A stretch of 64,000 nucleotides of DNA, from NCBI RefSeq assembly GCF_016623615.1, contig NZ_JAEHFX010000003.1, positions 372,001-436,000 of the forward strand, in the 5' to 3' direction. Positions 40,766 to 53,411 of this stretch are shown here, one piece after another. Below the pieces are notes generated by a model. It was not told the origin of the DNA. It was given only the letters and a program-made list of their open reading frames with translations, and did not search any database. How positions within the stretch are numbered: position 1 is the stretch's first letter; each line of letters starts with the position of its first letter. The position numbers and the translations under genes are program-made. Origin of the DNA: Adhaeribacter terrigena. Its GTDB lineage: Bacteria; Bacteroidota; Bacteroidia; Cytophagales; Hymenobacteraceae.

Positions 40766-41054
40766 AGCGGTTTCTTTGAGTTTTTAAGTGGAAAAGGATA
40801 GCGTTTTAATTGCCTAATTTAGAGCTTATTTCCAAAGGAAACAATCAGGGTTGTAACGCGAAGTCTGTTATTTATCTTGCATTAGCAACCGTAAATTGTT
40901 GAGATCCAATTCTGCTGTCAAGTAAGAATAATGAGTATATGTCAGTTTTCCAGTGGAAAAGCATAGCGTTTCTGCCGGAAATATTTGCATTCCGGGCAGT
41001 GCTTCCGCAGGCATTTGTCGTATATTTGCAGCCCGAAATTCCCCTGTTGCGTTT
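40766..41054. other. Divergent gap with two motif copies
   Basis: 289 bases between the peptidase (minus) and SGNH gene (plus). Two copies of the dispersed motif, AAAAGGATAGCGTTTT (40792-40807) and AAAAGCATAGCGTTT (40958-40972). Promoters for both genes should be here. An in-frame ATG at 40953 upstream of the SGNH gene overlaps the second motif and is not the likely start. Confidence 0.6.
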
Positions 41055-42548
41055 ATGATCAAGCCGTACCGGTCTTTGCTTTTGTTGGTTTACGTGGGTG
41101 TGCTGCTGGCCGTAGCTTTGTTTTTTCTGCCCGCCAGTATTCCGCTGCCGAACGGTTATTCCTTGCGTTTTTTCACCCTGGAAAGCCTGCTCGATACCAA
41201 AGGAAAACAATACGCGGACATTTCGGATATTGAGAAAAAATTTACGCCGGCCGAAGAAAAAGCAACCACCGCGAAAAACGGTAGGGTTTCCGGTCCAAAA
41301 ACTGCGCAGGCCGATACGCTCGAAAGCCGTTTTAAAATTCAGTTCCCGGCCGGCAACGACACCGCGCTTTTCAGTTTCTTCCGCCATTTGCAAAACCTAA
41401 GAAACTCCGAAGAACTGGTGCGGGCACTGCATTACGGCGACTCCCAGATCGAAGGTGACCGGATCACGGCTTTCCTGCGAAACAAGTTTCAAAACCGGTT
41501 TGGCGGGTGCGGCGTGGGCTTGGTGCCGTTGCAGGACGCCCTCGGCAACCGCACTTCCATCCAGATCAACAGCGACGATGCCTGGAAAAGAATGCGCGCC
41601 TACGGGCCCGATTACCGCAAAAAAGCGCCGCATCATTACGGCATTCTGGGCAGTTACTTTAATTTTTCCTTTAGCTACACCCAAACCATTCCCGGCGATA
41701 CCGCGGCCACCGACAGCCTGCGCCGCCAACCGAAATATATTACCAAAAAACGTTCGAATATCTGGGTAGAATACGCCAAAGCACCCGGCGCCTACGCCCG
41801 CGACAGCCGTTTCGAGAATTTCAAATTGCTATATTCCAATCCGGGGGCGCCGGTTAAACTGAACGTTCAAATCCGGAAAGACAGCATCAAAACCTATGAA
41901 CTGCCGGTAACCACCGAGCCCTCCGTTTTTGAAATGCCTTTCACGGGAAATTTCAAGAAAATCAGGCTCAGTTTTGAAGGCACCCAAAGTCCGGAATTTT
42001 ACGGCGCGGCGCTCGACTGCAATTCGGGCGTGGTGATCGATAACATGCCTTTCCGGGGAAGTTCGGGAACGGAATTCGTGCGGATGAACAAAGAAACGCT
42101 GCGCGTGCAATTTCAGCAGCTCAACGTGAAATTCATCATTTTGCAATACGGCGTAAACGTAGTGCCGCACGTGATCAAAGATTACGGTTATTACGAAAAA
42201 CAATTCTATACACAGCTGAAACTATTGCGGGAGCTGGCGCCCGAAGCCAGCATTCTGGTAGTAGGCGTTTCGGACGTTTCCCGGAAAGAAGGCGAAGTTT
42301 ACACCACGTATCCGAACGTAGAAAAGATCCGCGATGCGCAGCGCAACGCTGCCTTTAAAGCTGGTTGCGCGTTCTGGGACCTGTATACGGCTATGGGCGG
42401 TAAAGATTCCATGCCGAGCTGGGTGTTTGCCAAACCGGCCCTGGCCAACAAAGATTTTACCCACTTCACCCCGAAAGGAGCCCAACTGGTAGCCGAAATG
42501 CTGTTTAAAAGCCTGATGTACGAATATGAGCAATTCAGCCGCAAGTAA
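41055..42548 (+). CDS. SGNH-hydrolase-like membrane-anchored protein 1
   Basis: A protein of 497 residues from the ATG at 41055 (MIKPYRSLLLLVYVGVLL), which gives an N-terminal membrane anchor. Block I is ALHYGDSQIEGDRI (GDS, nucleophile Ser) and block V is KDFTHFTPKGAQLVAEM (Asp-x-x-His), the SGNH/GDSL pattern; a beta domain lies between. SGNH proteins next to MBOAT acyltransferases usually move or remove acetyl groups on surface polysaccharide. The linker after the anchor encodes a dispersed motif copy (41273-41301, read as KNGRVSG). The gene overlaps the next by 23 bases. Confidence 0.85.
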   Translation: MIKPYRSLLLLVYVGVLLAVALFFLPASIPLPNGYSLRFFTLESLLDTKGKQYADISDIEKKFTPAEEKATTAKNGRVSGPKTAQADTLESRFKIQFPAGNDTALFSFFRHLQNLRNSEELVRALHYGDSQIEGDRITAFLRNKFQNRFGGCGVGLVPLQDALGNRTSIQINSDDAWKRMRAYGPDYRKKAPHHYGILGSYFNFSFSYTQTIPGDTAATDSLRRQPKYITKKRSNIWVEYAKAPGAYARDSRFENFKLLYSNPGAPVKLNVQIRKDSIKTYELPVTTEPSVFEMPFTGNFKKIRLSFEGTQSPEFYGAALDCNSGVVIDNMPFRGSSGTEFVRMNKETLRVQFQQLNVKFIILQYGVNVVPHVIKDYGYYEKQFYTQLKLLRELAPEASILVVGVSDVSRKEGEVYTTYPNVEKIRDAQRNAAFKAGCAFWDLYTAMGGKDSMPSWVFAKPALANKDFTHFTPKGAQLVAEMLFKSLMYEYEQFSRK

Positions 42549-43788
42549 GGTTTTTGGTATTGTACTGGCTGTCCGTTTGCTTATGGCCGGCATGGTTTTC
42601 GGTTTGCCGGCCGATTCGGTAAAGCGGAAAACGGTAGGGTTTGAGCCACCGAAACTCGCGCAGCAATATGGTTTTATAAAATACGGTCTGAATAAAATTG
42701 AAGTAAAAGATTCGCTGGCTATGCAAACTTTTTACCGCGCCCTGGATTCTTTGAGAGCCGGTACACGGCAAAAAGTGAACGTGGTGCACATCGGCGATTC
42801 GCATATTCAGGCCGATATTTTTTCGGGTAGAATGCGTTCGCTTTTACAGGATCCTGAAGCTTTGGGAAATGGTGGCCGGGGTTTTGTATTTCCGTATCCG
42901 CTGGCCCGAACCAATAATCCCTGGAATTATAAGGTAACATTTACAGGTGTTTGGGACGGCTGTAAAAATGTGCAATACGCGCAAAATTGCAACTGGGGCC
43001 TGGCCGGCATCGTGGCTGAAACCGTGGACAGCAGCGCGACTTTTACGATTCAAAACAATAGCGTTCCGGTTAGCAAGGTACGCGTTTTTTATCCGGTGCA
43101 AGACCTGACCCAGTTTGCGGTAATGGTGCAGGCTGCGGGCGTAAATTATCAACCCGTGAGGACCGATACGCTTGGTTTTGCCGAATTCATTTTGCCCGAA
43201 GAAGTTACAGAAATACAAGTGTTGCTTCTGAAAAAGTTTACACGCCAGAAGCATTTTACCTTGCAGGGCATCAGCCTGGAAAATGAAAGGCCGGGTCTGG
43301 TTTATTCGAGCCTGGGCGTGAACGGGGCAGAGGTTATTTCTTTTTTGCGGAGCAGCAATGCTTTCGAAAAAAACCTGGCGGCCATTAAACCTGACCTGAT
43401 CATAGTTTCTTTGGGAACGAACGATGCGTACGGCAAGATCTTCAACCCGGAAAAATTCAAGCAAAATTACGGCACCTTGCTGCAGCGCATTCAGAAAGCC
43501 GCGCCGCACGCTTCGGTGTTGCTCACCACGCCCGGCGATAATTACCGGCAGCGCAAATACCCGAATTACAACAACGTAAAAGCTGCCGCTAAAATTTACG
43601 AACTGGCCGAAGAAACCGGCAGCGCCGTCTGGAATTTTTACCACGTCATGGGTGGTTTGCGCTCGGTAGTAAAATGGCAATTGAACGGCCTGGCCGCCAA
43701 AGACAAAGTTCATTTAACCGGCAAAGGCTACCGCCTGCAGGGCGATCTTTTATTTGAGGCGCTGATGGAAGGATATAAAAATGATTAA
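42526..43788 (+). CDS. SGNH-hydrolase-like secreted protein 2
   Basis: A 420-residue protein with an N-terminal signal or anchor (about 8-27). SGNH motifs are complete: VVHIGDSHIQADIFSGR (block I), LGVNGAEVISFLR (block II), IVSLGTNDAYG (block III, GxND) and KDKVHLTGKGYRLQGD (block V). A paralogue of the preceding gene with which it overlaps. A dispersed motif copy (42626-42647) is read here as RKTVGFE, a different frame from the one in the first SGNH gene. It probably acts on acylated envelope glycans with the downstream MBOAT protein. Confidence 0.87.
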   Translation: MSNSAASKVFGIVLAVRLLMAGMVFGLPADSVKRKTVGFEPPKLAQQYGFIKYGLNKIEVKDSLAMQTFYRALDSLRAGTRQKVNVVHIGDSHIQADIFSGRMRSLLQDPEALGNGGRGFVFPYPLARTNNPWNYKVTFTGVWDGCKNVQYAQNCNWGLAGIVAETVDSSATFTIQNNSVPVSKVRVFYPVQDLTQFAVMVQAAGVNYQPVRTDTLGFAEFILPEEVTEIQVLLLKKFTRQKHFTLQGISLENERPGLVYSSLGVNGAEVISFLRSSNAFEKNLAAIKPDLIIVSLGTNDAYGKIFNPEKFKQNYGTLLQRIQKAAPHASVLLTTPGDNYRQRKYPNYNNVKAAAKIYELAEETGSAVWNFYHVMGGLRSVVKWQLNGLAAKDKVHLTGKGYRLQGDLLFEALMEGYKND

Positions 43789-44143
43789 AATCAAAAGCGC
43801 TTTTTCAATGTTAGAAGAATTTGGAAGCACATTCGCTTTCATTCTTTTGATACTGCTTTTAGTCATTAATACTTCTGATGCCTATGATTTTTTACAAAAG
43901 CCCGAAGATTATATAAATTTTTATCACTTAGATATTACCAAAAAGAATTGGAAATGGGACTATCTTCAAAATGGTATTAAAGTAACAGCACTGTCCACAG
44001 TAGGAATATTTATTTATCTCCATTCCTTTCTTAAAAAGGATAACAAAGTTTTGAAAATCCTTCGGTCCATATGTACTATAATATTATTTGGAAACTTAGC
44101 TTATGGCTATTATCAGTGGTATTTAACAGGTTTCGACCATTAA
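43781..44143 (+). CDS. Small three-helix membrane protein
   Basis: A 120-residue protein with three predicted membrane helices (about 15-32, 67-85, 95-115) and no recognised family. It overlaps the SGNH gene by 8 bases and lies 39 bases before the MBOAT gene, so it is part of the same transcript. It is clearly more A+T-rich than its neighbours, which suggests later acquisition. Confidence 0.65.
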   Translation: MIKIKSAFSMLEEFGSTFAFILLILLLVINTSDAYDFLQKPEDYINFYHLDITKKNWKWDYLQNGIKVTALSTVGIFIYLHSFLKKDNKVLKILRSICTIILFGNLAYGYYQWYLTGFDH

Positions 44144-44182
44144 TTATTTCACGACTTTTTATCGCAAAAATTATAGCATTTT

Positions 44183-45715
44183 ATGCTTGAAAATATACTT
44201 GAAAATTTAAAGGAACTGCTGAAATTCCAGCCCGAGCATCCGATGATCTTTACTACGGCCTTGTTCTGGTTTTTCTTCGGACTGGTGCTGGTGGTTTTTC
44301 AGTTTACGTATCGCAAATTCACCGCACGGAATTTATTTTTGTTCGCGTTCAGTTTGTTTTTTTATTACAAATCGAGCGGGTATTTCTTTGTGCTCTTGCT
44401 GCTTACCACCGTGATCGATTACGTGATGGGCTGGCAGATTTTCCGGGCAAACTCAAAAGCTTCCAAAAAGTTTTTCGTCTTCATCAGTTTGTGCATGAAC
44501 CTGGGCTTGCTTTGTTATTTTAAGTATTCCTATTTTCTTTCCGGGTTTTTCAATGCACTTTTCGGCACTACGTATCAGCCGGTAGATTACCTGGCTTACA
44601 TGACCAACTATTTCACCAGCTCTAACCTGGATATTACGCACATCATTCTGCCGGTCGGTATTTCGTTTTACACGTTTCAGAGCATCAGTTATTCCATCGA
44701 TATTTACCGCGGCATTATTAAACCCGTAGATCGGTTCCTGGATTTTGCCTTTTTCGTGAGCTTTTTCCCGCAGCTCGTAGCCGGCCCCATTGTGCGCGCT
44801 TCGGAATTTGTGCCGCAGATCTACAAGCCATACGACCTGACGAAAGACGAATTTAACCGCGCCATTTTCCTGATCCTGGCCGGCCTGATCAAAAAGATCC
44901 TGATCTCCGATTATATTTCCAGCAACTTTGTAGACCGGGTTTTTGAGTCGCCGGTCAGCTACACGGGCTTCGAGAACCTGATGAGCGTTTATGGCTATAC
45001 CATCCAGATCTACTGCGATTTTTCGGGATATACCGATATTGCCATTGGGGTAGCATTGCTGCTTGGCTTCCGGCTATCCATCAATTTTAATTCCCCGTAT
45101 ATTTCGCAGAATATCACTGAGTTCTGGCGCCGCTGGCACATTTCGCTTTCAACCTGGCTCAAAGATTATCTCTATATTTCTTTGGGCGGTAATCGGAAAG
45201 GCAAAGTGCGGCAATACGTAAATTTGTTTATTACCATGCTGCTAGGAGGCCTTTGGCACGGGGCCCACATCAAATTCATTATCTGGGGCGCTTTGCACGG
45301 CGTGGCGCTGGCTTTACATAAAGGCTGGATGGAAATTACCGGCAGCGATGGTAAAGGAAAATCGTTTTTCAGCCGGTTATGGGCAAGAGTTTTAACCTTC
45401 CATTTCGTAGCGTTTTGCTGGATCTTTTTCCGGGCCGATAACCTCGATATTGTGAACCAGGTTTTAAGCCAGATCGCCTACCATTTCGAGCCGCACCTGA
45501 TCCCGCAAATGCTGGTTGCCTATAAAGAAGTTTTCCTGCTGATGCTGATCGCCTATATCGTGCATTTTATTCCGGTACCGCAGAAAACCCGCCTGGGCGA
45601 CTGGTTCGGTTATCTTCCCGATCTGGCCAAAGCGGCAATGATCGTACTCATTATTCTGGGGCTTTACCAGGTAAAAACCGCCGCCATTCAGCCTTTCATT
45701 TACTTTCAGTTCTAA
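44183..45715 (+). CDS. MBOAT-family O-acyltransferase (AlgI/DltB-like)
   Basis: A 510-residue polytopic membrane protein of the MBOAT family, which transfers acyl groups from the cytoplasm to extracellular acceptors. Typical sequence includes HIILPVGISFYTFQSISYSI, FFPQLVAGPIVRASEFVPQ, YCDFSGYTDIAIG, NITEFWRRWHISLSTWLKDY and MLLGGLWHGAHIKFIIWG, where the His of LWHG is the catalytic residue. With two SGNH proteins it forms an alginate/cellulose-type acetylation module. The modified polymer is not identifiable here. Confidence 0.93.
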   Translation: MLENILENLKELLKFQPEHPMIFTTALFWFFFGLVLVVFQFTYRKFTARNLFLFAFSLFFYYKSSGYFFVLLLLTTVIDYVMGWQIFRANSKASKKFFVFISLCMNLGLLCYFKYSYFLSGFFNALFGTTYQPVDYLAYMTNYFTSSNLDITHIILPVGISFYTFQSISYSIDIYRGIIKPVDRFLDFAFFVSFFPQLVAGPIVRASEFVPQIYKPYDLTKDEFNRAIFLILAGLIKKILISDYISSNFVDRVFESPVSYTGFENLMSVYGYTIQIYCDFSGYTDIAIGVALLLGFRLSINFNSPYISQNITEFWRRWHISLSTWLKDYLYISLGGNRKGKVRQYVNLFITMLLGGLWHGAHIKFIIWGALHGVALALHKGWMEITGSDGKGKSFFSRLWARVLTFHFVAFCWIFFRADNLDIVNQVLSQIAYHFEPHLIPQMLVAYKEVFLLMLIAYIVHFIPVPQKTRLGDWFGYLPDLAKAAMIVLIILGLYQVKTAAIQPFIYFQF

Positions 45716-46012: not shown

Positions 46013-48151
46013 ATGGATATTCGGTCTGCGCATGGTTTTATTTCGGGCAGAAAGCAGGTTTGGTTTCTGGTTGGCGCAGCTGCAACGGTACTGATCGGGG
46101 TTCTTTATTTCCGGTATTTTCGGCCGCTTTACAAACCAACTTACCAGATTGGCATCATTGTAAATTCGGTTGAACTGGAGCCGGCCGATCTAAGAGCGAT
46201 CCAATACATAGTAGGTGAAAAAATTAAAAGTGTGAATGCTGAAGGTGGGATAAACGGCCACTCCGTAGAAGCAATTTATTTAGACGATAAAGGCAGTCCC
46301 GGATTATTAAAAAAACAGGTAAGGCAAACCATTCAGAATAAAAAACTGATCGCTTATATTGGTTGCAAAAGTTCCCTGCGCACGCTGGCAATTGCCCCGA
46401 TCCTGGCGCAGCATCAGGTAGCTTTCATTGGTTCTTTTTCCCTCACAAACCTCACTACCGCTTATCCGAATATTTACAGTTCTGAAGTGGGCATGCGGGA
46501 TGTGCGGTTTGTTTTACAGGAGCTTCTGAAGAAAAAATCCGGATCAGCTGCATTTATCGGAAAAAAGGGCGATCTGTATTCGGAAGCGCTTCTTAAAGTA
46601 ATGGAAGCGCTGGCTGCCAAAGAACCCGGTTTTAAGGTTACCTCCCGGTTTTGGTACCCGGAAGGCTACCGTTTTACGGCAGCCGAAACCCGGAAACTTG
46701 CCAGCGAACTCAAAGAGAAAAATGATTTCCTGATGCTTTCCCTGGAGCAGCGCAGTTCAAACCGCCTGCTGCCTGCGCTGTGGAAAGAAGGCTTGCGGAT
46801 ACCGGTTTTTTGCGGTCTTACCGATATTACGCAGATCAATTCCCAAAGCCCTTTTTACCGGCAAGCCGAACTGTACGACATCAACCCGGTGGGTATTCCG
46901 GGGGTGCTGAACATGCATTTACAGCAGCAACATGCCGCTTTTCGAGGCAAGATCCCTGAGGGGCCTAAGCTGGAATTTCAGCTCGGGTTTGGCGGACGCC
47001 TGGCCGATGAGATCGGTTTGTTGCAACAGGCGGCTTCTAAATCAGATTTGCCACCCGAAGCCAATATTCGGGAAAAGATCGTTGCGGGATTAAAAGCCTT
47101 TATGCCCGGCCAGCAGATTTACCGGGGCTGGTTTGCCGATTGGTATTTTTCTTCGGAACGGGCCTTTGGCGGAGAACCCTTGCTGGCCTGGAAACCGCCC
47201 CGGTTTCTTTACCCTTTGCTGGCCCCCGAGCAATACCTGCGCACCGATTCTGACAGCGGTTACCGCAAAGCGCCCGTACTTTATGCCAACCTCGACCTGC
47301 TTGATATCAGTCAGATAAACGACGAACAAGGAAGCTTCTACGCCACTTTTTACCTCGAACTAAGTTCGGTGCGCGATCTGAACATTAAAAACATTGATTT
47401 TACGAACGCCGAACGCAACAAAATAAACCAGCAGCCGCTGATAGAAGCCAAAGTAGTGCGGCGGAAAAAAGACCAGGGCGGCAACAACTTTCAACATTAC
47501 CTCTATAAAGTTTCGGGAAAATTTACCTTTAACCCCGACCTGAAAAAATACCCCTTCGATGAACAGAAGTTTCCAATAACCCTGCAAACCAGCGACGCGC
47601 TGAAAACCTTCCTGGTTCAGCCGCCAGACAAAGCCTTCCGGGACACGATTTTTGAAGTTTCCGGCTGGAATTACAAGTACAATTACGTGGGCTACGACCA
47701 GGATATTATCACCGTAGACCGCAATTTCGGCAGCATGCAAAGGAATATTCCATCCTACAAATTCAGTTATGTTTACGAAATGCAGCGGGCCCGCATCGAC
47801 TTCAGCTTAAAAACCCTGGTGCCTTTGCTGGCCATTCTTATTATTTCCTACCTCTCGGCTTTTATTCCACCGCGTGAATTCGAAACGCTCTGCGCAATTC
47901 AGGTTACGGCTTTACTTTCTTCCATTGCCCTTTACTTTTCTACCTATAAACCCGAAATGCAGTATGCCACCACTTCCGATAAAATCTTCATTTTCACGTA
48001 TGTCATGATCACCACGTTGCTGGCTACCTCGATCCTGAAATACGTGATGTACCGGCGCAATTATTTCATCAAACGCCTCGCGTTGGTTTATCAGCGTTTG
48101 CTTTTCCCGCTCATTGTGCTGGGATTTTCCATTTTTATTCGCTGGTTATAG
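46013..48151 (+). CDS. PBP1-domain / pentameric ligand-gated ion channel fusion 1
   Basis: A 712-residue receptor-channel. An N-terminal hydrophobic helix (17-34) leads to a type-1 periplasmic binding domain (about 44-400: YQIGIIVNSVELEPADLRAI, INAEGGINGH-like VNAEGGINGHSVEAIYLDD, YIGCKSS). A Cys-loop-superfamily ligand-binding beta domain (about 420-595) follows, with YKVSGKFTFNPDLKKYPFDE, the Pro-loop PFD at 514-516, and GWNY. Four channel helices end it: M1 598-618, M2 about 623-643 (REFETLCAIQVTALL), M3 655-680, M4 692-711. As in other prokaryotic channels the loop lacks the Cys pair. It probably opens an ion pore in the inner membrane on binding a small periplasmic ligand. Ion selectivity and ligand are unknown. 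Confidence 0.87.
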   Translation: MDIRSAHGFISGRKQVWFLVGAAATVLIGVLYFRYFRPLYKPTYQIGIIVNSVELEPADLRAIQYIVGEKIKSVNAEGGINGHSVEAIYLDDKGSPGLLKKQVRQTIQNKKLIAYIGCKSSLRTLAIAPILAQHQVAFIGSFSLTNLTTAYPNIYSSEVGMRDVRFVLQELLKKKSGSAAFIGKKGDLYSEALLKVMEALAAKEPGFKVTSRFWYPEGYRFTAAETRKLASELKEKNDFLMLSLEQRSSNRLLPALWKEGLRIPVFCGLTDITQINSQSPFYRQAELYDINPVGIPGVLNMHLQQQHAAFRGKIPEGPKLEFQLGFGGRLADEIGLLQQAASKSDLPPEANIREKIVAGLKAFMPGQQIYRGWFADWYFSSERAFGGEPLLAWKPPRFLYPLLAPEQYLRTDSDSGYRKAPVLYANLDLLDISQINDEQGSFYATFYLELSSVRDLNIKNIDFTNAERNKINQQPLIEAKVVRRKKDQGGNNFQHYLYKVSGKFTFNPDLKKYPFDEQKFPITLQTSDALKTFLVQPPDKAFRDTIFEVSGWNYKYNYVGYDQDIITVDRNFGSMQRNIPSYKFSYVYEMQRARIDFSLKTLVPLLAILIISYLSAFIPPREFETLCAIQVTALLSSIALYFSTYKPEMQYATTSDKIFIFTYVMITTLLATSILKYVMYRRNYFIKRLALVYQRLLFPLIVLGFSIFIRWL

Positions 48152-48215
48152 CTTTTCCAACAGTTTCAGTCCGGCTCTATAAACCACGAATATTCAGAAA
48201 GAAAACGGTACCCAA

Positions 48216-50351
48216 ATGCATCTGAAAACGCCCCGGCATCTTACCCAGTTTACCGCATTCCTGTTGCTGGGAATTGCGCTTTTGGTGTTGGCCGGTACGG
48301 GTGTTTACCAGTTTTTAAAAGGCCGTTTCCGCCAGACATATACCATTGGCGTGCTTTACAATGCCATAAACCTTTCGCCGGAAGACCTGAAAGTGGTAAA
48401 ATTCATGATCGATAAACAGGTAAAAGAAATTAACGACCAAGGCGGATTTGCCGGCGGCACTTTAAAGATCAAATACCTGAACGATGGGGGCAGCCGGAAA
48501 ACTGCTTATAAAGTAGTACGTGAAACCATAAACGACGAAAACCTGGTGGCTTATCTGGGGTGCTGGAGTTCTACGCGAGTGCAGGCCCTGACAGAGCTGG
48601 TGGGCAAGGCCGGCGTTGCATTTATCGGGGGATATTCGGTGCCGGAAGTTGCTAAAGGCTATAACAACATGTTTAGCTATGAAACCGGGGTAAAACAAAA
48701 CGCTTTTATTCTGCACGGCCTGCTTCAGGCAAAGGCCCGAAGGGTAATGGTAATTGCCAATTCTGGTGATGTTTATTCCGAAGCTTTGCTGGACGAATTG
48801 AAATTAATGCATAGATCGGATACCAGATACACCATAGTGCAGGAAAAATGGTATCCCTTGCGCTTTAAACTCTCACCAGACACGCTGCAGGCGCTGGCAG
48901 AGGCAGTAAAAGCCACTAAAACCGATTTTGTCATCATTTCGGCATACCCGGTTCATACCAGTAAAGTACTGCAAACCCTGGCCGATCATCAGCTTTACAT
49001 TCCGGCTTTCTCCGCTTTTGTAGATATTCCTGAAATTGAAATGGAACCCGATGCTTATAAGCAAACTGAACTGTACGATATCAGCGTGTTCGGTATTCCG
49101 AGCGTGTTGAATTTACGGCAGCAGCTTTACCGTTCTAAGAATAAACTGGAAATGAAGCCTGACCGGAAAAGCGAATTCAGGCTGGGGCTGGGCGGTTTGC
49201 ACGCCGACGCGATCGGGTTGCTGAAAGAAGCTGCCGAATTGGAAAATCACGGCGACCCGGTTGACATGCGGAAAAAGATCACCCGGGGTTTGCAGCACTA
49301 CATTAACGGAGAACGGATCTACCACGGGTGGTTTTCGGATTGGTATTTTAATGAAGAACATGTTTTAGTAAGCGAAATTTTGCTTGGCTGGAAACCGGCC
49401 GGCTCCATGAACCTGCTTTTGGCGCCCCAGCAGTATGTGATCTCCGATTCTGCTTACCAACCCGCTCAGGTGCTTTATACCAACATCGATATGGTGGAGC
49501 TGAACCAGGTAAATGATGTAGATAAAACCTTCGCAGCCAGGTTCTTTCTCAGCTTGAGCTCCGTTTCGCCGGTTAACATTTCGCAGCTCGATTTTTCGAA
49601 TACGGTTCGTAACGAGAACAACCATCAGCCTATTCTGGCCCTGAAACTGCTAAAAGCGGACTCTGTATCAGGAAAACCAACTATCTACAATTACCTTTAC
49701 CAGGTTTCGGGCAATTTTCATTTTAAACCCGATCTGCGCCGGTACCCGTTCGATGAGCAGCAATTTACGATTTCACTGCAAACCAACAGTGCCTACAAAC
49801 CTCTTCTGATGCAACCGGCCAGCCGACCTCGCCGCGATACGGTATTTGATTCGCCGGGCTGGCTTTACCAGAGTAATTACGTTGGCTCAGAAGAAGCCCT
49901 GATCGTATCCAGCAACAAATTCATAAACACACACCGGTACATTCCGAATTACCAGTTTAATTTCACCTATGTACTGAAACGCGCCAAGGTAGATTTTTTC
50001 CTGAAAACGCTTACCCCGTTGCTGGCTATTCTCATGATCACTTATTTATCGGCGTTTATTCCCATCCGGGAGTTCGAAGCTTTGGCTGCTATTCAGGTTA
50101 CGGCTCTTTTGTCTGCTATTGCCCTTTATTTTTCGGCTTATAAACCGCCCAGCCAGTTTGCCAGTATTTCCGACAATATTTTCATTTTCACTTACATCAT
50201 GATCACCACGCTTATTGCTTCATCTATTCTGCAATACTGGCTTTATAGCAAGCAAACGGGCCGCCGCGAAATAGCCCAGGCAGTCGGCATTTACGAACGC
50301 CTGCTTTTCCCGCTGATCGTGGTGGTTTATACGGTTTTCTTTATTTTATAA
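48216..50351 (+). CDS. PBP1-domain / pentameric ligand-gated ion channel fusion 2
   Basis: A 711-residue paralogue with the same layout: N-terminal helix (about 13-33), PBP1 domain (about 40-395: YTIGVLYNAINLSPEDLKVV, VKEINDQGGFAGG, YLGCWSS), channel beta domain (about 415-595: YQVSGNFHFKPDLRRYPFDE) and four helices (M2 region REFEALAAIQVTALLSAIAL). The channel halves of the two proteins are much more alike than the binding domains, so they may co-assemble while sensing different ligands. It starts 64 bases after the first gene, and a dispersed motif copy lies right before its ATG (48202-48213). Confidence 0.87.
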   Translation: MHLKTPRHLTQFTAFLLLGIALLVLAGTGVYQFLKGRFRQTYTIGVLYNAINLSPEDLKVVKFMIDKQVKEINDQGGFAGGTLKIKYLNDGGSRKTAYKVVRETINDENLVAYLGCWSSTRVQALTELVGKAGVAFIGGYSVPEVAKGYNNMFSYETGVKQNAFILHGLLQAKARRVMVIANSGDVYSEALLDELKLMHRSDTRYTIVQEKWYPLRFKLSPDTLQALAEAVKATKTDFVIISAYPVHTSKVLQTLADHQLYIPAFSAFVDIPEIEMEPDAYKQTELYDISVFGIPSVLNLRQQLYRSKNKLEMKPDRKSEFRLGLGGLHADAIGLLKEAAELENHGDPVDMRKKITRGLQHYINGERIYHGWFSDWYFNEEHVLVSEILLGWKPAGSMNLLLAPQQYVISDSAYQPAQVLYTNIDMVELNQVNDVDKTFAARFFLSLSSVSPVNISQLDFSNTVRNENNHQPILALKLLKADSVSGKPTIYNYLYQVSGNFHFKPDLRRYPFDEQQFTISLQTNSAYKPLLMQPASRPRRDTVFDSPGWLYQSNYVGSEEALIVSSNKFINTHRYIPNYQFNFTYVLKRAKVDFFLKTLTPLLAILMITYLSAFIPIREFEALAAIQVTALLSAIALYFSAYKPPSQFASISDNIFIFTYIMITTLIASSILQYWLYSKQTGRREIAQAVGIYERLLFPLIVVVYTVFFIL

Positions 50352-50846: not shown

Positions 50847-53411
50847 ATGGCCGAAGGCGAACGAATAATACCTATCAATATTGAGGATGAAATGCGGGGC
50901 GCCTACATCGACTACTCGATGTCCGTAATCATTTCCCGCGCCCTTCCTGATGTCCGCGACGGACTGAAACCGGTTCACCGCCGCGTACTTTACGGGATGA
51001 GTGAATTGGGCGTATCTTACAACAAAGCATATAAAAAATCGGCGCGTATCGTAGGGGAGGTGCTCGGTAAGTATCACCCGCACGGCGACTCTTCCGTTTA
51101 CGAAACCATGGTACGCATGGCCCAGGACTGGTCATTACGCTACCCGTTAGTAGATGGTCAGGGTAACTTTGGTTCTATAGACGGCGACTCTGCGGCGGCT
51201 ATGCGTTATACCGAAGCCCGCTTAAAACGGATTGCCGACGAACTGCTCGCAGATCTGGAAAAAGATACCGTAGATTTTCAGTCGAACTTTGATGATTCGC
51301 TGGAAGAGCCGAGCGTAATGCCGGCCAAACTGCCGAACTTATTAATTAACGGTACTTCCGGTATTGCAGTAGGTATGGCCACCAACATGGCGCCGCACAA
51401 CTTAACCGAAGTAGTGAACGGCATTCATGCTTACATCGATAACCCTGAGATCGAGATCAGTGAACTGATGCAGTACATAACCGCCCCTGATTTCCCGACC
51501 GGTGGCATTATTTACGGCTACGAAGGCGTGCGCTCAGCATTTGAAACCGGCCGCGGCCGCGTAATTCTGCGGGCCAAAGCTTCTTTCGAAACCTTGCCAA
51601 GCGGTAAAGAGCAGATCATTATTACCGAGATTCCTTTCATGGTGAACAAAGCCGCCATGATCGAGAAAACGGCTGCCCTGATTAACGAGAAAAAGATAGA
51701 AGGTATTTCGGATTTACGCGATGAATCGGACCGTGACGGTTTGCGCATTGTGTACGATCTGAAACGCGATGCCATGCCAAACGTGGTATTGAATAACCTC
51801 TTTAAATACACGCAGTTACAGTCTTCTTTCGGGGTAAACAACGTGGCGCTGGTAAAAGGCCGCCCGATGACGCTGAACCTGAAAGAGCTGATCAAATATT
51901 TTGTTGAGCACCGCCACGAAGTGGTGATCCGCCGTACAGAATTTGAACTGGCTGAAGCCCGGAAACGCGCACATATCTTAGAAGGTTTACTGATCGCGCT
52001 CGATAACCTGGACGAAGTAATTAACCTGATCCGCAGCTCGCGCGACCCGGAGATTGCCCGTAATGGTCTGATCGAACGTTTCAATTTATCGGATATTCAG
52101 GCCCGTGCCATTCTGGATATGCGTCTGCAGCGCCTTACAGGTCTGGAACGCGATAAGATCCAGAAAGAATTCGACGAGATCATGACCCTGATCGATCGCC
52201 TGACTGAAATTCTGGGCAGCGAGGAACTCCGGATGCAGATCATTAAAGACGAACTGAAAGAGATCCAGGACCGTTACGGCGATGCCCGTCGCACTTCCAT
52301 CGAAATGTCTTCGGCTGATTTCAGCATGGAAGACATGATCCCGGATGAGCACATGGTTATTACCATTTCGCACGAAGGCTATATTAAACGTACGGCGCTG
52401 GTTGAATACCGGAGCCAGAGTAGAGGAGGAGTTGGTTCCCGTGGCGTTTCCACGTCTAAGGAAACCGATTTTACCGAGCACCTGTTCATCGCCAGCACCC
52501 ATAATTACCTATTGTTATTTACGGAGCTCGGGCGTTTATTCTGGATGAAAGTTTACGAAGTTCCGGAAGGAGCGAAGACTTCCAAAGGCCGCGCCATTCA
52601 AAACCTGATCAACATTCCGAAAGATGATAAGATCCGGGCGGTACTGAACGTACACAACCTGAAAAACCCGGATTATATTCTGAATAACTACCTGATCTTC
52701 TGCACCGAACAGGGCGTTATTAAAAAGACTCCTTTAGAATCGTATTCCCGCCCGAGAACCAATGGCATTAATGCGATTACGATTAACGAAGGCGACCGTT
52801 TGTTAGACGTGCAAATGACCAGCGGTTCCGACGATATTGTGTTAGCATTGCGTTCAGGCCGCGCAGTTCGTTTCAACGAAGGCAAAGTGCGTTCCATGGG
52901 CCGTAACGCCGCCGGTGTGCGCGGGGTAACTTTAGCCGATGAAACCGACAAAGTGGTAGGCATGGTTTGTATCAATAACGATCAGATGAACCTGCTGGTG
53001 GTTTCGGAAAAAGGCTTCGGGAAACGTTCGCCAATTGAGGAATACCGGATCACGAACCGTGGTGGTAAAGGGGTGAAAACGCTGAACATTACCGAGAAAA
53101 CCGGTAAACTGGTGGCAATTCACGGCGTGGTAGATTCCGACGATCTGATGATCATCAACAAATCGGGCATTACCATCCGTTTGCGGGTTGCAGATCTGCG
53201 CGTGATCGGCCGGGCTACGCAAGGCGTGCGCTTACTGAAACTGAATGAAGGCGACGAAATTACTTCGGTAGCTAAAATTGACGTGGAAGATAAGGCTGAG
53301 GACCTGGAAGAAGCAGTTTTGGATCAGTCGGAGCTGCCGGCCGATCAGTCGCTGAACCCGGAAGTGAACGATCCGGAGTTGTTAAATCCGGATGCGATCA
53401 GTGAAAATTAA
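50847..53411 (+). CDS. gyrA: DNA gyrase subunit A
   Basis: GyrA is the DNA-breaking subunit of gyrase, which introduces negative supercoils. The N-terminus has [20 protein letters not shown]. The catalytic Tyr lies in [14 protein letters not shown], and the quinolone region is [17 protein letters not shown], with Ser82 at the E. coli Ser83 position and Glu86 where E. coli has Asp87. The C-terminal beta-pinwheel blades start near 500, with a GyrA-box-like [13 protein letters not shown]. The acidic tail ([12 protein letters not shown]) is normal. The stop codon sits inside a dispersed motif copy (53408-53439). Confidence 0.97.

Follow-up and report, generated by a model that had tools for sequence, protein, structure and literature searches.

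Tandem genes of Adhaeribacter terrigena joining a type I periplasmic-binding sensor to a predicted pentameric channel

Do two adjacent bacterial genes, each of which seems to fuse a periplasmic sensor to a ligand-gated channel, encode two separate receptors or the subunits of a single one? The question is raised by genes A and B, found in a 64,000-nt window of Adhaeribacter terrigena contig NZ_JAEHFX010000003.1 (372,001 to 436,000), which is the whole stretch of DNA analysed and the one to which all coordinates refer (Table 1). An earlier reading made from the sequence alone had described them as tandem paralogues, and they are indeed intact neighbouring ORFs, 64 bp apart, co-directional, with ATG starts and without internal stops, whose products are 43% identical over 684 columns. 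Both follow a common plan, consisting of an N-terminal hydrophobic anchor, a type I periplasmic-binding sensor, a Pro-loop domain with the YPFDEQ motif and four pore helices; in each protein the hydropathy profile showed a single hydrophobic segment at the N-terminus and, towards the C-terminus, a cluster interpreted as four helices. Taken as a whole, our explanation is that A and B are probably subunits of an inner-membrane, ligand-gated cation channel that is gated by a membrane-tethered sensor and encoded by a duplicated gene pair.

Table 1. Positions of the features of genes A and B within the window
Feature	Position	Strand	Basis
Gene A, PBP type I sensor plus pentameric channel subunit (predicted)	46013..48151	+	712 aa; ORF call, Pfam, phmmer, family profile
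A hydrophobic N-terminal stretch (residues 15-33), membrane anchor predicted to stay uncleaved	46055..46111	+	hydropathy; simple patterns find neither lipobox nor cleavage motif
A type I periplasmic-binding-protein sensor (about residues 41-405)	46133..47227	+	Peripla_BP_6 and profile; outer bounds inferred
A Pro-loop beta-sandwich domain (about residues 420-595)	47270..47797	+	model strands, GLIC match; bounds approximate
A Pro-loop YPFDEQ (513-518)	47549..47566	+	letters; YPFD and Q518 invariant in 13/13 rows
A four pore helices M1-M4 (about residues 596-712)	47798..48148	+	hydropathy, model, fold search
A M2 pore helix stretch 622-647: E624 (-2'), T632 (6'), L635 (9'), P647	47876..47953	+	alignments to GLIC chain and to GABA-A alpha1 TMD of chimera
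Spacer, 64 bp, A stop codon (48149-48151) to B start	48152..48215	+	ORF calls
Gene B, paralogue with the architecture of A	48216..50351	+	711 aa; ORF call, Pfam, A-B alignment
B N-terminal hydrophobic segment (residues 12-30)	48249..48305	+	hydropathy; motif patterns
B type I periplasmic-binding-protein sensor (about residues 39-404)	48330..49427	+	Peripla_BP_6; ANF_receptor below cut-off
B Pro-loop beta-sandwich domain (about residues 417-592)	49464..49991	+	alignment to A
B Pro-loop YPFDEQ, same place as in A	49743-49760	+	alignment to A, letters
B four pore helices (about residues 593-711)	49992..50348	+	alignment to A, hydropathy
B M2 stretch	50070-50147	+	alignment to A

Upstream of A lie MBOAT/GDSL genes, homologues of which were absent from the loci of the 13 relatives compared. 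The promoter pattern TANNTTTG occurred 49 times in the window, against 60 copies expected by chance, and was absent between 45227 and 46013.

The binding protein was the sole part of A and B named by Pfam and NCBIfam. By the Peripla_BP_6 profile both are type I periplasmic binding proteins, with matches above the curated Pfam cut-off of 31.7 bits in A (E 1.2e-15, 58.5 bits, residues 71-229) and B (E 3.9e-15, 56.8 bits, residues 69-272); ANF_receptor also matched B, at 3.2e-5, which is under the cut-off of that family. The search for homologues gave 18 matches, and the 13 full-length ones were aligned (alignment A1), leaving out a broken gene of genome G188 (L011), three fragments (L014, L015 and L018) and one match at chance level (L016). 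All 13 rows matched Peripla_BP_6, and the family profile matched binding proteins of the Leu/Ile/Val type (4mpt, 6.7e-9; 4gnr, 4e-8). Residues S120, S121, R123 and D271 of the sensor were invariant, S120 and S121 aligning with the ligand-side loop of binding-protein structures. The classical amino-acid backbone pocket of type I binding proteins consists of Ser, Thr and an acid; the serines (120/121) and Asp271 are invariant here, with the alignment of the acid uncertain, and the position of the Thr that holds the ligand backbone in binding proteins for branched-chain amino acids is occupied by Leu in A and Val in B.

The channel half was approached through its motifs, through profile searches and through structure prediction. 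Every row of A1 carried YPFDxQ, in agreement with the [YF]PFDxQ pattern of the Cys/Pro-loop, and Arg592, located just before M1, was invariant as well. A phmmer search with A alone found GLIC chains over residues 494-710 (about 1e-3 for the wild type and 1.6e-4 for a GLIC/GABA-A chimera), and the 13-row profile matched GLIC at about 1e-5 (profile positions 475-690), the sequence matches thus reaching from midway in the ECD through the TMD. The Pfam families Neur_chan_LBD and Neur_chan_memb had no match in the channel halves; 14 control genomes were likewise silent, so this silence says little about A and B. The AlphaFold model of the channel half of A (pLDDT 59) contained nine strands followed by four long helices; its input alignment and the one for the full-length model had three rows each (A, B and the homologue L019). 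Structure predictions without a channel fold in this half had been named beforehand as the result that would speak against the sequence-only reading. A Foldseek search with the channel-half model placed GLIC first (best E 3.4e-14, TM-score 0.58), and each of the best 50 of the 1349 matches (E <= 10) was a pentameric ligand-gated channel or a chimera made from such channels. The 50 matches listed for the full-length model, which was too poor (pLDDT 51) for statements on the packing of sensor and channel, again gave the channel match only. The C-terminal half is a pentameric (Cys-loop/Pro-loop) channel fold according to these predictions, at modest model confidence, and the fusion of a sensor to a Pro-loop channel is borne out by the Peripla_BP_6 and GLIC matches, the YPFDEQ motif and the channel-half model together.

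That annotation libraries recognise the binding protein only would also suit membrane-bound substrate-binding proteins of an ABC transporter, with the C-terminal half as a mere anchor; we consider this highly improbable, given the invariant Pro-loop, Arg592 and M2 residues and the predicted GLIC-like fold. Genes like A and B are probably filed as transporter subunits in annotation.

E624, T632 and L635 of M2 were invariant in the 13 rows, and over residues 622-647 A and B differed at positions 625, 627, 637 and 644 only. In the alignments E624 falls on the -2' Glu of GLIC, and T632 and L635 on 6' and 9' of GABA-A in the usual prime numbering. Placing E624 at -2' requires a two-residue gap in the outer part of M2 and, when the reference is GLIC instead of GABA-A, a further two-residue gap before M2, whereas gap-free anchoring on P647 puts E624 at 0'.

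In all 13 aligned rows the sensor is preceded, at a distance of 10-13 residues (10 in both A and B), by the end of a hydrophobic stretch lacking a clear cleavage motif, and so the sensor probably has two ties to the membrane, an uncleaved N-terminal helix and the channel that follows its C-terminus. Simple patterns found neither a lipobox nor an AXA motif in the N-terminal segments of the 13 rows, and the weak small-x-small motif was absent from 11 of them. Nine of 75 control proteins, among which homologues from different loci were counted apart, lacked both the lipobox and the weak motif; of these nine, three are apparently genuine signal peptides or a lipoprotein that the patterns missed, and six resemble anchored proteins. 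With an anchor ending only 10 residues before it, the sensor probably does not stand free atop the channel, and being held at both ends it would more probably stand beside the Pro-loop ring. The tether is our own addition to the sequence-only reading.

The fusion itself has been known since 2004, as the sequence-only reading had rightly noted. Among ART-LGICs, Tasneem et al. (2004, PMC549065) describe a PBP-I domain followed by a ligand-binding domain and a four-helix channel in Bradyrhizobium japonicum and Magnetospirillum magnetotacticum, with a signal peptide predicted for all their cases. A and B have the same domain order and differ in forming a tandem pair, in their probable uncleaved anchor and in belonging to another phylum. 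The layout had also been compared with that of animal glutamate receptors; the order of sensor and then channel holds, but the likeness does not extend beyond it, since the C-terminal half of A and B matches the pentameric fold and a probable anchor lies 10 residues before the sensor, whereas ionotropic glutamate receptors are described in PMC549065 as having the channel inserted within a PBP-II domain. GLIC and ELIC share with A and B the Pro-loop ECD and four TM helices, with significant profile and fold matches (for ELIC, to the second family described below), and GLIC also a Glu at the aligned -2' position; both lack a sensor domain and are two residues longer from -2' to the M2-M3 proline. 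DeCLIC, which was among the Foldseek matches listed, is a prokaryotic channel whose added N-terminal domain lies against the periphery of the ECD and consists, unlike a Venus flytrap, of two jelly-roll lobes (PMC9897478).

In the mechanism that we propose, each gene would give one subunit of a pentameric (Cys-loop/Pro-loop) channel to which a periplasmic Venus flytrap, of the type that binds branched-chain amino acids and amides, has been added as a sensor. Closure of the sensor would be brought about by a small, probably amino-acid-like metabolite; a short linker would carry the movement to the Pro-loop domain, and the pore, with E -2', T 6' and L 9' along its lining, would open and let cations in. 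The sensor could instead be passive or modulatory, only concentrating ligand, while the Pro-loop domain itself responds to protons, divalent cations or amines as in GLIC, ELIC and DeCLIC. In DeCLIC the N-terminal domain influences gating kinetics and calcium acts at the ECD (PMC9897478), and Tasneem et al. (PMC549065) proposed preliminary concentration or sensing of the ligand; the four invariant sensor residues, two of them at the aligned ligand-side loop, and the fact that the sensor is the most diverged part between A and B argue against such a role, which we hold to be unlikely.

The comparison of A with B by parts gave identities of 65% for the TMD (75% for M1-M3), 44% for the Pro-loop domain and 36% for the sensor. 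The claim that conserved channel halves are joined to diverged sensors thus stands for the pore and the sensor; it fails for the Pro-loop domain, which has diverged nearly like the sensor, and the whole channel half is 52% identical. A and B were sisters in the full-length tree (100/100), with the TMD alone (100/98), with the channel half (95/98) and, at 81/89 only, with the sensor alone. In the full-length tree their end branches were the longest (0.77 and 1.02), so that long-branch attraction could help to pair A with B. That A and B are products of a duplication, after which the pore was kept alike and the sensor and Pro-loop domain diverged, is well supported by these sequence comparisons. 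Recent gene conversion was considered as the source of the alike pores and set aside, there being no clear homogenised block at the pore in 40-residue windows (3-17 sites each). Identity at fourfold sites of shared codons was 38% (21/55) in the sensor, 50% (15/30) in the Pro-loop domain and 52% (17/33) in the TMD, against a random expectation of 27%; older gene conversion between A and B may have occurred.

Two PBP-channel fusion families were found in Cytophagales, and of the genomes searched that of the window alone had such genes as neighbours. Nine of the ten Pontibacter-type genomes had a single intact match, and the other (G187) had two unlinked genes. A contig scan with one protein as query found one relative only, and none appeared in the viral and plasmid collections. 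Of 12 Pontibacter-type channel loci (the 11 intact genes and the broken one), 8 had DUF1622 immediately upstream; it was rejected as a needed operon partner, as in 9 of 13 channel-less Pontibacter-type genomes it is found, with no channel present, in one or other of the two settings it has in the channel loci, and in a tenth of these 13 the setting is kept in part. The second family comprised 12 loci (L027-L038) of PBP1-like channels of about 710 aa, one in each of 12 genomes, five of which also had an unlinked lone channel of 325-378 aa. It showed a weak Peripla_BP_6 match in the 11 scanned and an ELIC match by profile, and its own profile aligned with A1 over residues 64-678 (E 9.6e-14). In contrast to A and B, it is without the M2 gap and has a lipobox in 5 of 12 instead of a plain hydrophobic anchor. 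Its alignment (A3) held 11 of the 12 loci, leaving out L034, which is close to L033; the full-length tree and the N-terminal count used all 12.

Whether A and B co-assemble in mixed pentamers seems to us evenly balanced. Their tandem arrangement, alike M2 and diverged sensors are circumstantial pointers to a heteropentamer. Separate homopentamers with different ligands, resulting from plain duplication and diverged specificity, with pores alike through ordinary constraint, come slightly short of an even prospect in our judgement. The nine genomes with a single intact match would need to make homomers unless a partner escaped the search, and the pore domain was the most conserved part in every comparison, including that of Pontibacter with Pontibacter (81%, sensor 60%). 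The Pro-loop domain, which makes many subunit contacts, has diverged to 44%. On the other side stand the close, co-directional adjacency of A and B and a pore identity between them that exceeds that of A or B to Pontibacter, which the sensor identity does not: when the mean identity of A or B to Pontibacter is subtracted from that between A and B, +6.3 (-1.3 to 14.1) is left for the TMD and -3.3 (-6.7 to 0.7) for the sensor, and in 10 of 400 column bootstraps the excess of the TMD over the sensor was zero or below. On assembly, Tasneem et al. (2004, PMC549065) favour homopentamers, most genomes having one gene. The fullest version of the mixed reading, in which a heteropentamer with a shared pore and two differently tuned, membrane-tethered flytrap sensors beside the ring integrates two signals in one current, is a tentative and rather doubtful proposal; if true, it would make a nicotinic-type scaffold the basis of a coincidence or ratio detector.

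The solved prokaryotic pentameric channels (GLIC, ELIC, DeCLIC and sTeLIC) have, to our knowledge, been studied as homomers, and we know of no animal use of a flytrap sensor paired with a Cys-loop-type gate. This pairing was absent among the matches listed (60 of 86 from the profile search and 50 of 1349 from Foldseek). A and B would provide a flytrap sensor coupled to a gate of this type, and the membrane-tethered sensor, if true, would make the gating geometry directly testable. With diverged sensors and alike pores side by side, the two copies suggest themselves as candidate partners in a mixed bacterial channel, and the tandem would offer a compact natural test of the origin of mixed pentamers and of split ligand specificity outside animals.

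The two-ORF location given for A and B in the sequence-only reading was borne out, and the feature is real: both genes are intact, encoding a periplasmic binding protein (PBP) type I sensor, a Pro-loop domain and four pore helices (TMD, M1-M4). They are separated by 64 bp, their products are 43% identical over 684 columns, and they were the sole matches to A in the window's genome (4.4 Mb, 24 contigs; E <= 0.001). Upstream of A lies a co-directional group of genes that, in our reading, is like a polymer O-acetylation cassette; the long gene downstream of B reads to us like DNA gyrase subunit A.

Coordinates of the sensor-channel genes and of features near them or their relatives (window positions, or locus where named)
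Feature	Location	Strand	Basis
Gene A, intact ORF, 712 aa	46013-48151	+	ORF reading
Gene B, intact ORF, 711 aa	48216-50351	+	ORF reading
M2 stretch of A (residues 622-647)	47876-47953	+	alignment
M2 stretch of B (same columns)	50070-50147	+	alignment
Two GDSL-lipase-family genes, small hydrophobic ORF, MBOAT gene	40953-45715		
Long gene downstream of B	50847-53411		
DUF1622 gene directly upstream of channel	L079, L080, L081, L082, L085, L087, L088, L091		
Cyanophycin-synthetase-like gene directly downstream of channel	L019:10670-13327		

The channel half was named by no model in Pfam or NCBIfam, and the silence of PF02931 and PF02932 in a profile search of the window's genome says little, because 14 control genomes were equally silent. 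In sequence searches, residues 494-710 of A alone matched chains of GLIC (from 3.2e-4 through about 1e-3 to weaker values) and, at 1.6e-4, a GLIC/GABA-A chimera, and the profile of A1, a 13-row full-length alignment of the A/B family (numbered here as A), matched GLIC at about 1e-5. The AlphaFold model of residues 408-712 of A, built from a three-row alignment, contained nine strands and, after them, four long helices at a mean pLDDT of 59 (the full-length model, pLDDT 51, was too poor for use). The best 50 of its 1349 Foldseek matches were all pentameric ligand-gated channels or chimeras thereof, with GLIC at the top (3.4e-14, TM-score 0.58). The channel fold, on which the earlier proposal had made itself depend, was thus recovered for the C-terminal half, with the modest confidence that such a model allows.

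Peripla_BP_6 of Pfam was found above cut-off in the sensors of A (1.2e-15) and B (3.9e-15), and B also had a sub-threshold match to ANF_receptor; across A1 the former was found in all 13 rows and the latter in seven (E <= 0.01). Among solved structures, the A1 profile matched binding proteins of the Leu/Ile/Val and amide types (4mpt, 6.7e-9; 4gnr, 4e-8; 4nqr, 5e-8), and S120, S121, R123 and D271 were invariant in the 13 rows. In branched-chain amino-acid binding proteins a Thr helps to hold the backbone of the ligand; A has Leu and B has Val in this column, so that the ligand can be assigned no further than amino-acid-like, an assignment that is itself unproven.

Matches were found in 15 of 204 genomes of the taxonomic family (E <= 0.001): the window's genome, ten Pontibacter-type genomes (genus code g5) that together hold eleven genes intact over their full length, G188 with a broken gene, G168 and G177 with fragments, and G063 at chance level; G009, the other genome of the window's genus, had none in this search. 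Broken or fragmentary channel genes occur in three Pontibacter-type genomes (L011/L088 in G188, L014/L018/L089 in G168 and L015/L090 in G177), so that the sensor-channel gene has decayed repeatedly and is apparently dispensable. Order-wide, 31 of 390 genomes had matches, and 12 of the 31 bore a second family (L027-L038), whose members are about 710 aa long, PBP1-like in the N-terminal half and ELIC-like in the channel half; Peripla_BP_6 was weakly detected in all 11 members scanned, and the profile of this family could be aligned with A1 across residues 64-678 (hhalign E 9.6e-14). Across the phylum 34 of 395 genomes had matches, and those listed outside the window's genome were open frames of 156-551 aa, corresponding to binding proteins or channels on their own, or to pieces.

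Several neighbours recurred beside the relatives. In eight of the 12 channel loci of Pontibacter type, a small DUF1622 membrane-protein gene directly preceded the channel, in one or other of two genomic settings; in channel-less genomes this gene was found in one of those settings in 9/13 and partly in a tenth, and in the window's genome it is on a different contig from A and B. One paper in the open-licence literature mentions DUF1622. The cyanophycin-synthetase-like gene adjoining the channel in L019 has members of its cluster within about 10 kb of the channel in L080 and L085 as well. In genus code g179, genes for lone channels about 369 aa long (L092, L094) adjoin a gene from one shared cluster; in L094 this neighbour is a cation-efflux transporter.

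An uncharged run of 16-20 residues ended 10-13 residues ahead of the first sensor strand in every A1 row; none of the 13 had a lipobox or AXA motif, and a weak small-x-small motif occurred in B and L017 only. Among 75 controls from the fetched loci with one N-terminal hydrophobic stretch, nine had a lipobox, 57 a weak or strong cleavage motif and nine neither, six of these last looking anchored and three looking like signal sequences missed by the patterns. The A/B-family sensor is predicted from these features to be tethered to the membrane at both ends, with an uncleaved helix as the probable N-terminal anchor. Tasneem et al. (PMC549065) ascribe a signal peptide to every one of their cases. 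In the second family, five of 12 members, forming one tree group (85/98), had a lipobox that stops 9-12 residues short of the sensor, which we read as a putative lipid tether in place of the helix; two of the other seven had an AXA motif and may be cleaved. With so short a leash in the A/B family, the sensor is expected beside the channel ring rather than on top of it, a placement like that of the unrelated N-terminal lobes of DeCLIC, which pack on the ECD periphery (PMC9897478).

Both HMMER alignments placed E624 at -2' (Glu in GLIC, Pro in GABA-A alpha1), T632 at 6' and L635 at 9' of the prime numbering, with the reservation that the GLIC alignment also requires two extra residues before M2 and that gapless anchoring on P647 would place E624 at 0'. 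These three residues were invariant in the 13 rows, as was the length of the E624-P647 stretch, which is shorter by two residues than its counterparts in GLIC, GABA-A alpha1 and the second family, the alignments placing the gap in the outer half of M2. Within 622-647, A and B differed only at 625, 627, 637 and 644. The other nearby acidic residue, E622, was not conserved in Pontibacter, favouring E624 as the candidate ring residue. A Glu ring at -1' or -2' goes with cation selectivity, and with E624 at -2' the pore should pass cations. A Glu tied to cation selectivity is marked in a figure legend of Tasneem et al. (PMC549065).

The full-length tree made A and B sisters (100/100), on the longest end branches (0.77 and 1.02), whose placement the tree tool warned to be unsure; the pairing recurred with the TMD (100/98), the channel half (95/98) and the sensor (81/89). 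Identity between A and B rose from 36% (sensor) through 44% (Pro-loop domain) to 65% (TMD) and 75% (M1-M3), and the mean identities of A and of B to the Pontibacter-type rows were, in the same order of domains, 41 and 37%, 47 and 44%, 60 and 57%, and 68 and 66%. The sensor of A thus resembles its Pontibacter counterparts at least as much as it resembles that of B, whereas the pores of A and B are mutually closest. Of 400 column bootstraps, 10 lacked the contrast of TMD against sensor and 28 that of TMD against the Pro-loop domain; the single-domain intervals all reached zero. This pattern fits diversifying sensors on a common pore, as mixed pentamers would favour; ordinary constraint on pores accounts for it nearly as well. 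Shared fourfold sites of A and B showed no clear homogenised block. Many subunit contacts fall in the Pro-loop domain, and this domain was not specially conserved between A and B. Mixed A/B pentamers are plausible as a hypothesis.

Among all genome sets searched (family, order and phylum), an adjacent sensor-channel pair was found in the window's genome only, the order- and phylum-wide searches scoring at most two candidates per genome, so that second copies could escape there; G187 had two copies on separate contigs. When the second-family genomes were re-searched with all candidates scored, each of the 12 had one sensor-channel gene, and in five a lone channel (325-378 aa) was also present elsewhere in the genome. 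Genomes with more than one channel are thus not rare, and adjacent twins are a once-seen trait. Homopentamers were favoured by Tasneem et al. (PMC549065) because most genomes had one gene.

The sensor-channel fusion is, as a kind, already known: the same paper (Genome Biol, December 2004) reports fusions with a PBP-I domain from M. magnetotacticum and B. japonicum and likens them to animal receptors. Among the open-licence papers listed by literature searches (DeCLIC, GLIC and ELIC work and reviews), none described a tandem pair or studied the function of a channel fused to a PBP, and the main text of a 2016 survey (PMC4795631) lacks the terms periplasmic, PBP, Bacteroid, fused and tandem. Taken as a whole, A and B are likely to be duplicated subunits of a cation channel gated by flytrap sensors, a confidence slightly lowered by the reservation on the M2 alignment and by the warning about long branches. 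The tandem arrangement, the uneven divergence of its domains, the probable tether at both ends and the shorter M2 set the pair apart from the known kind and merit experiment.
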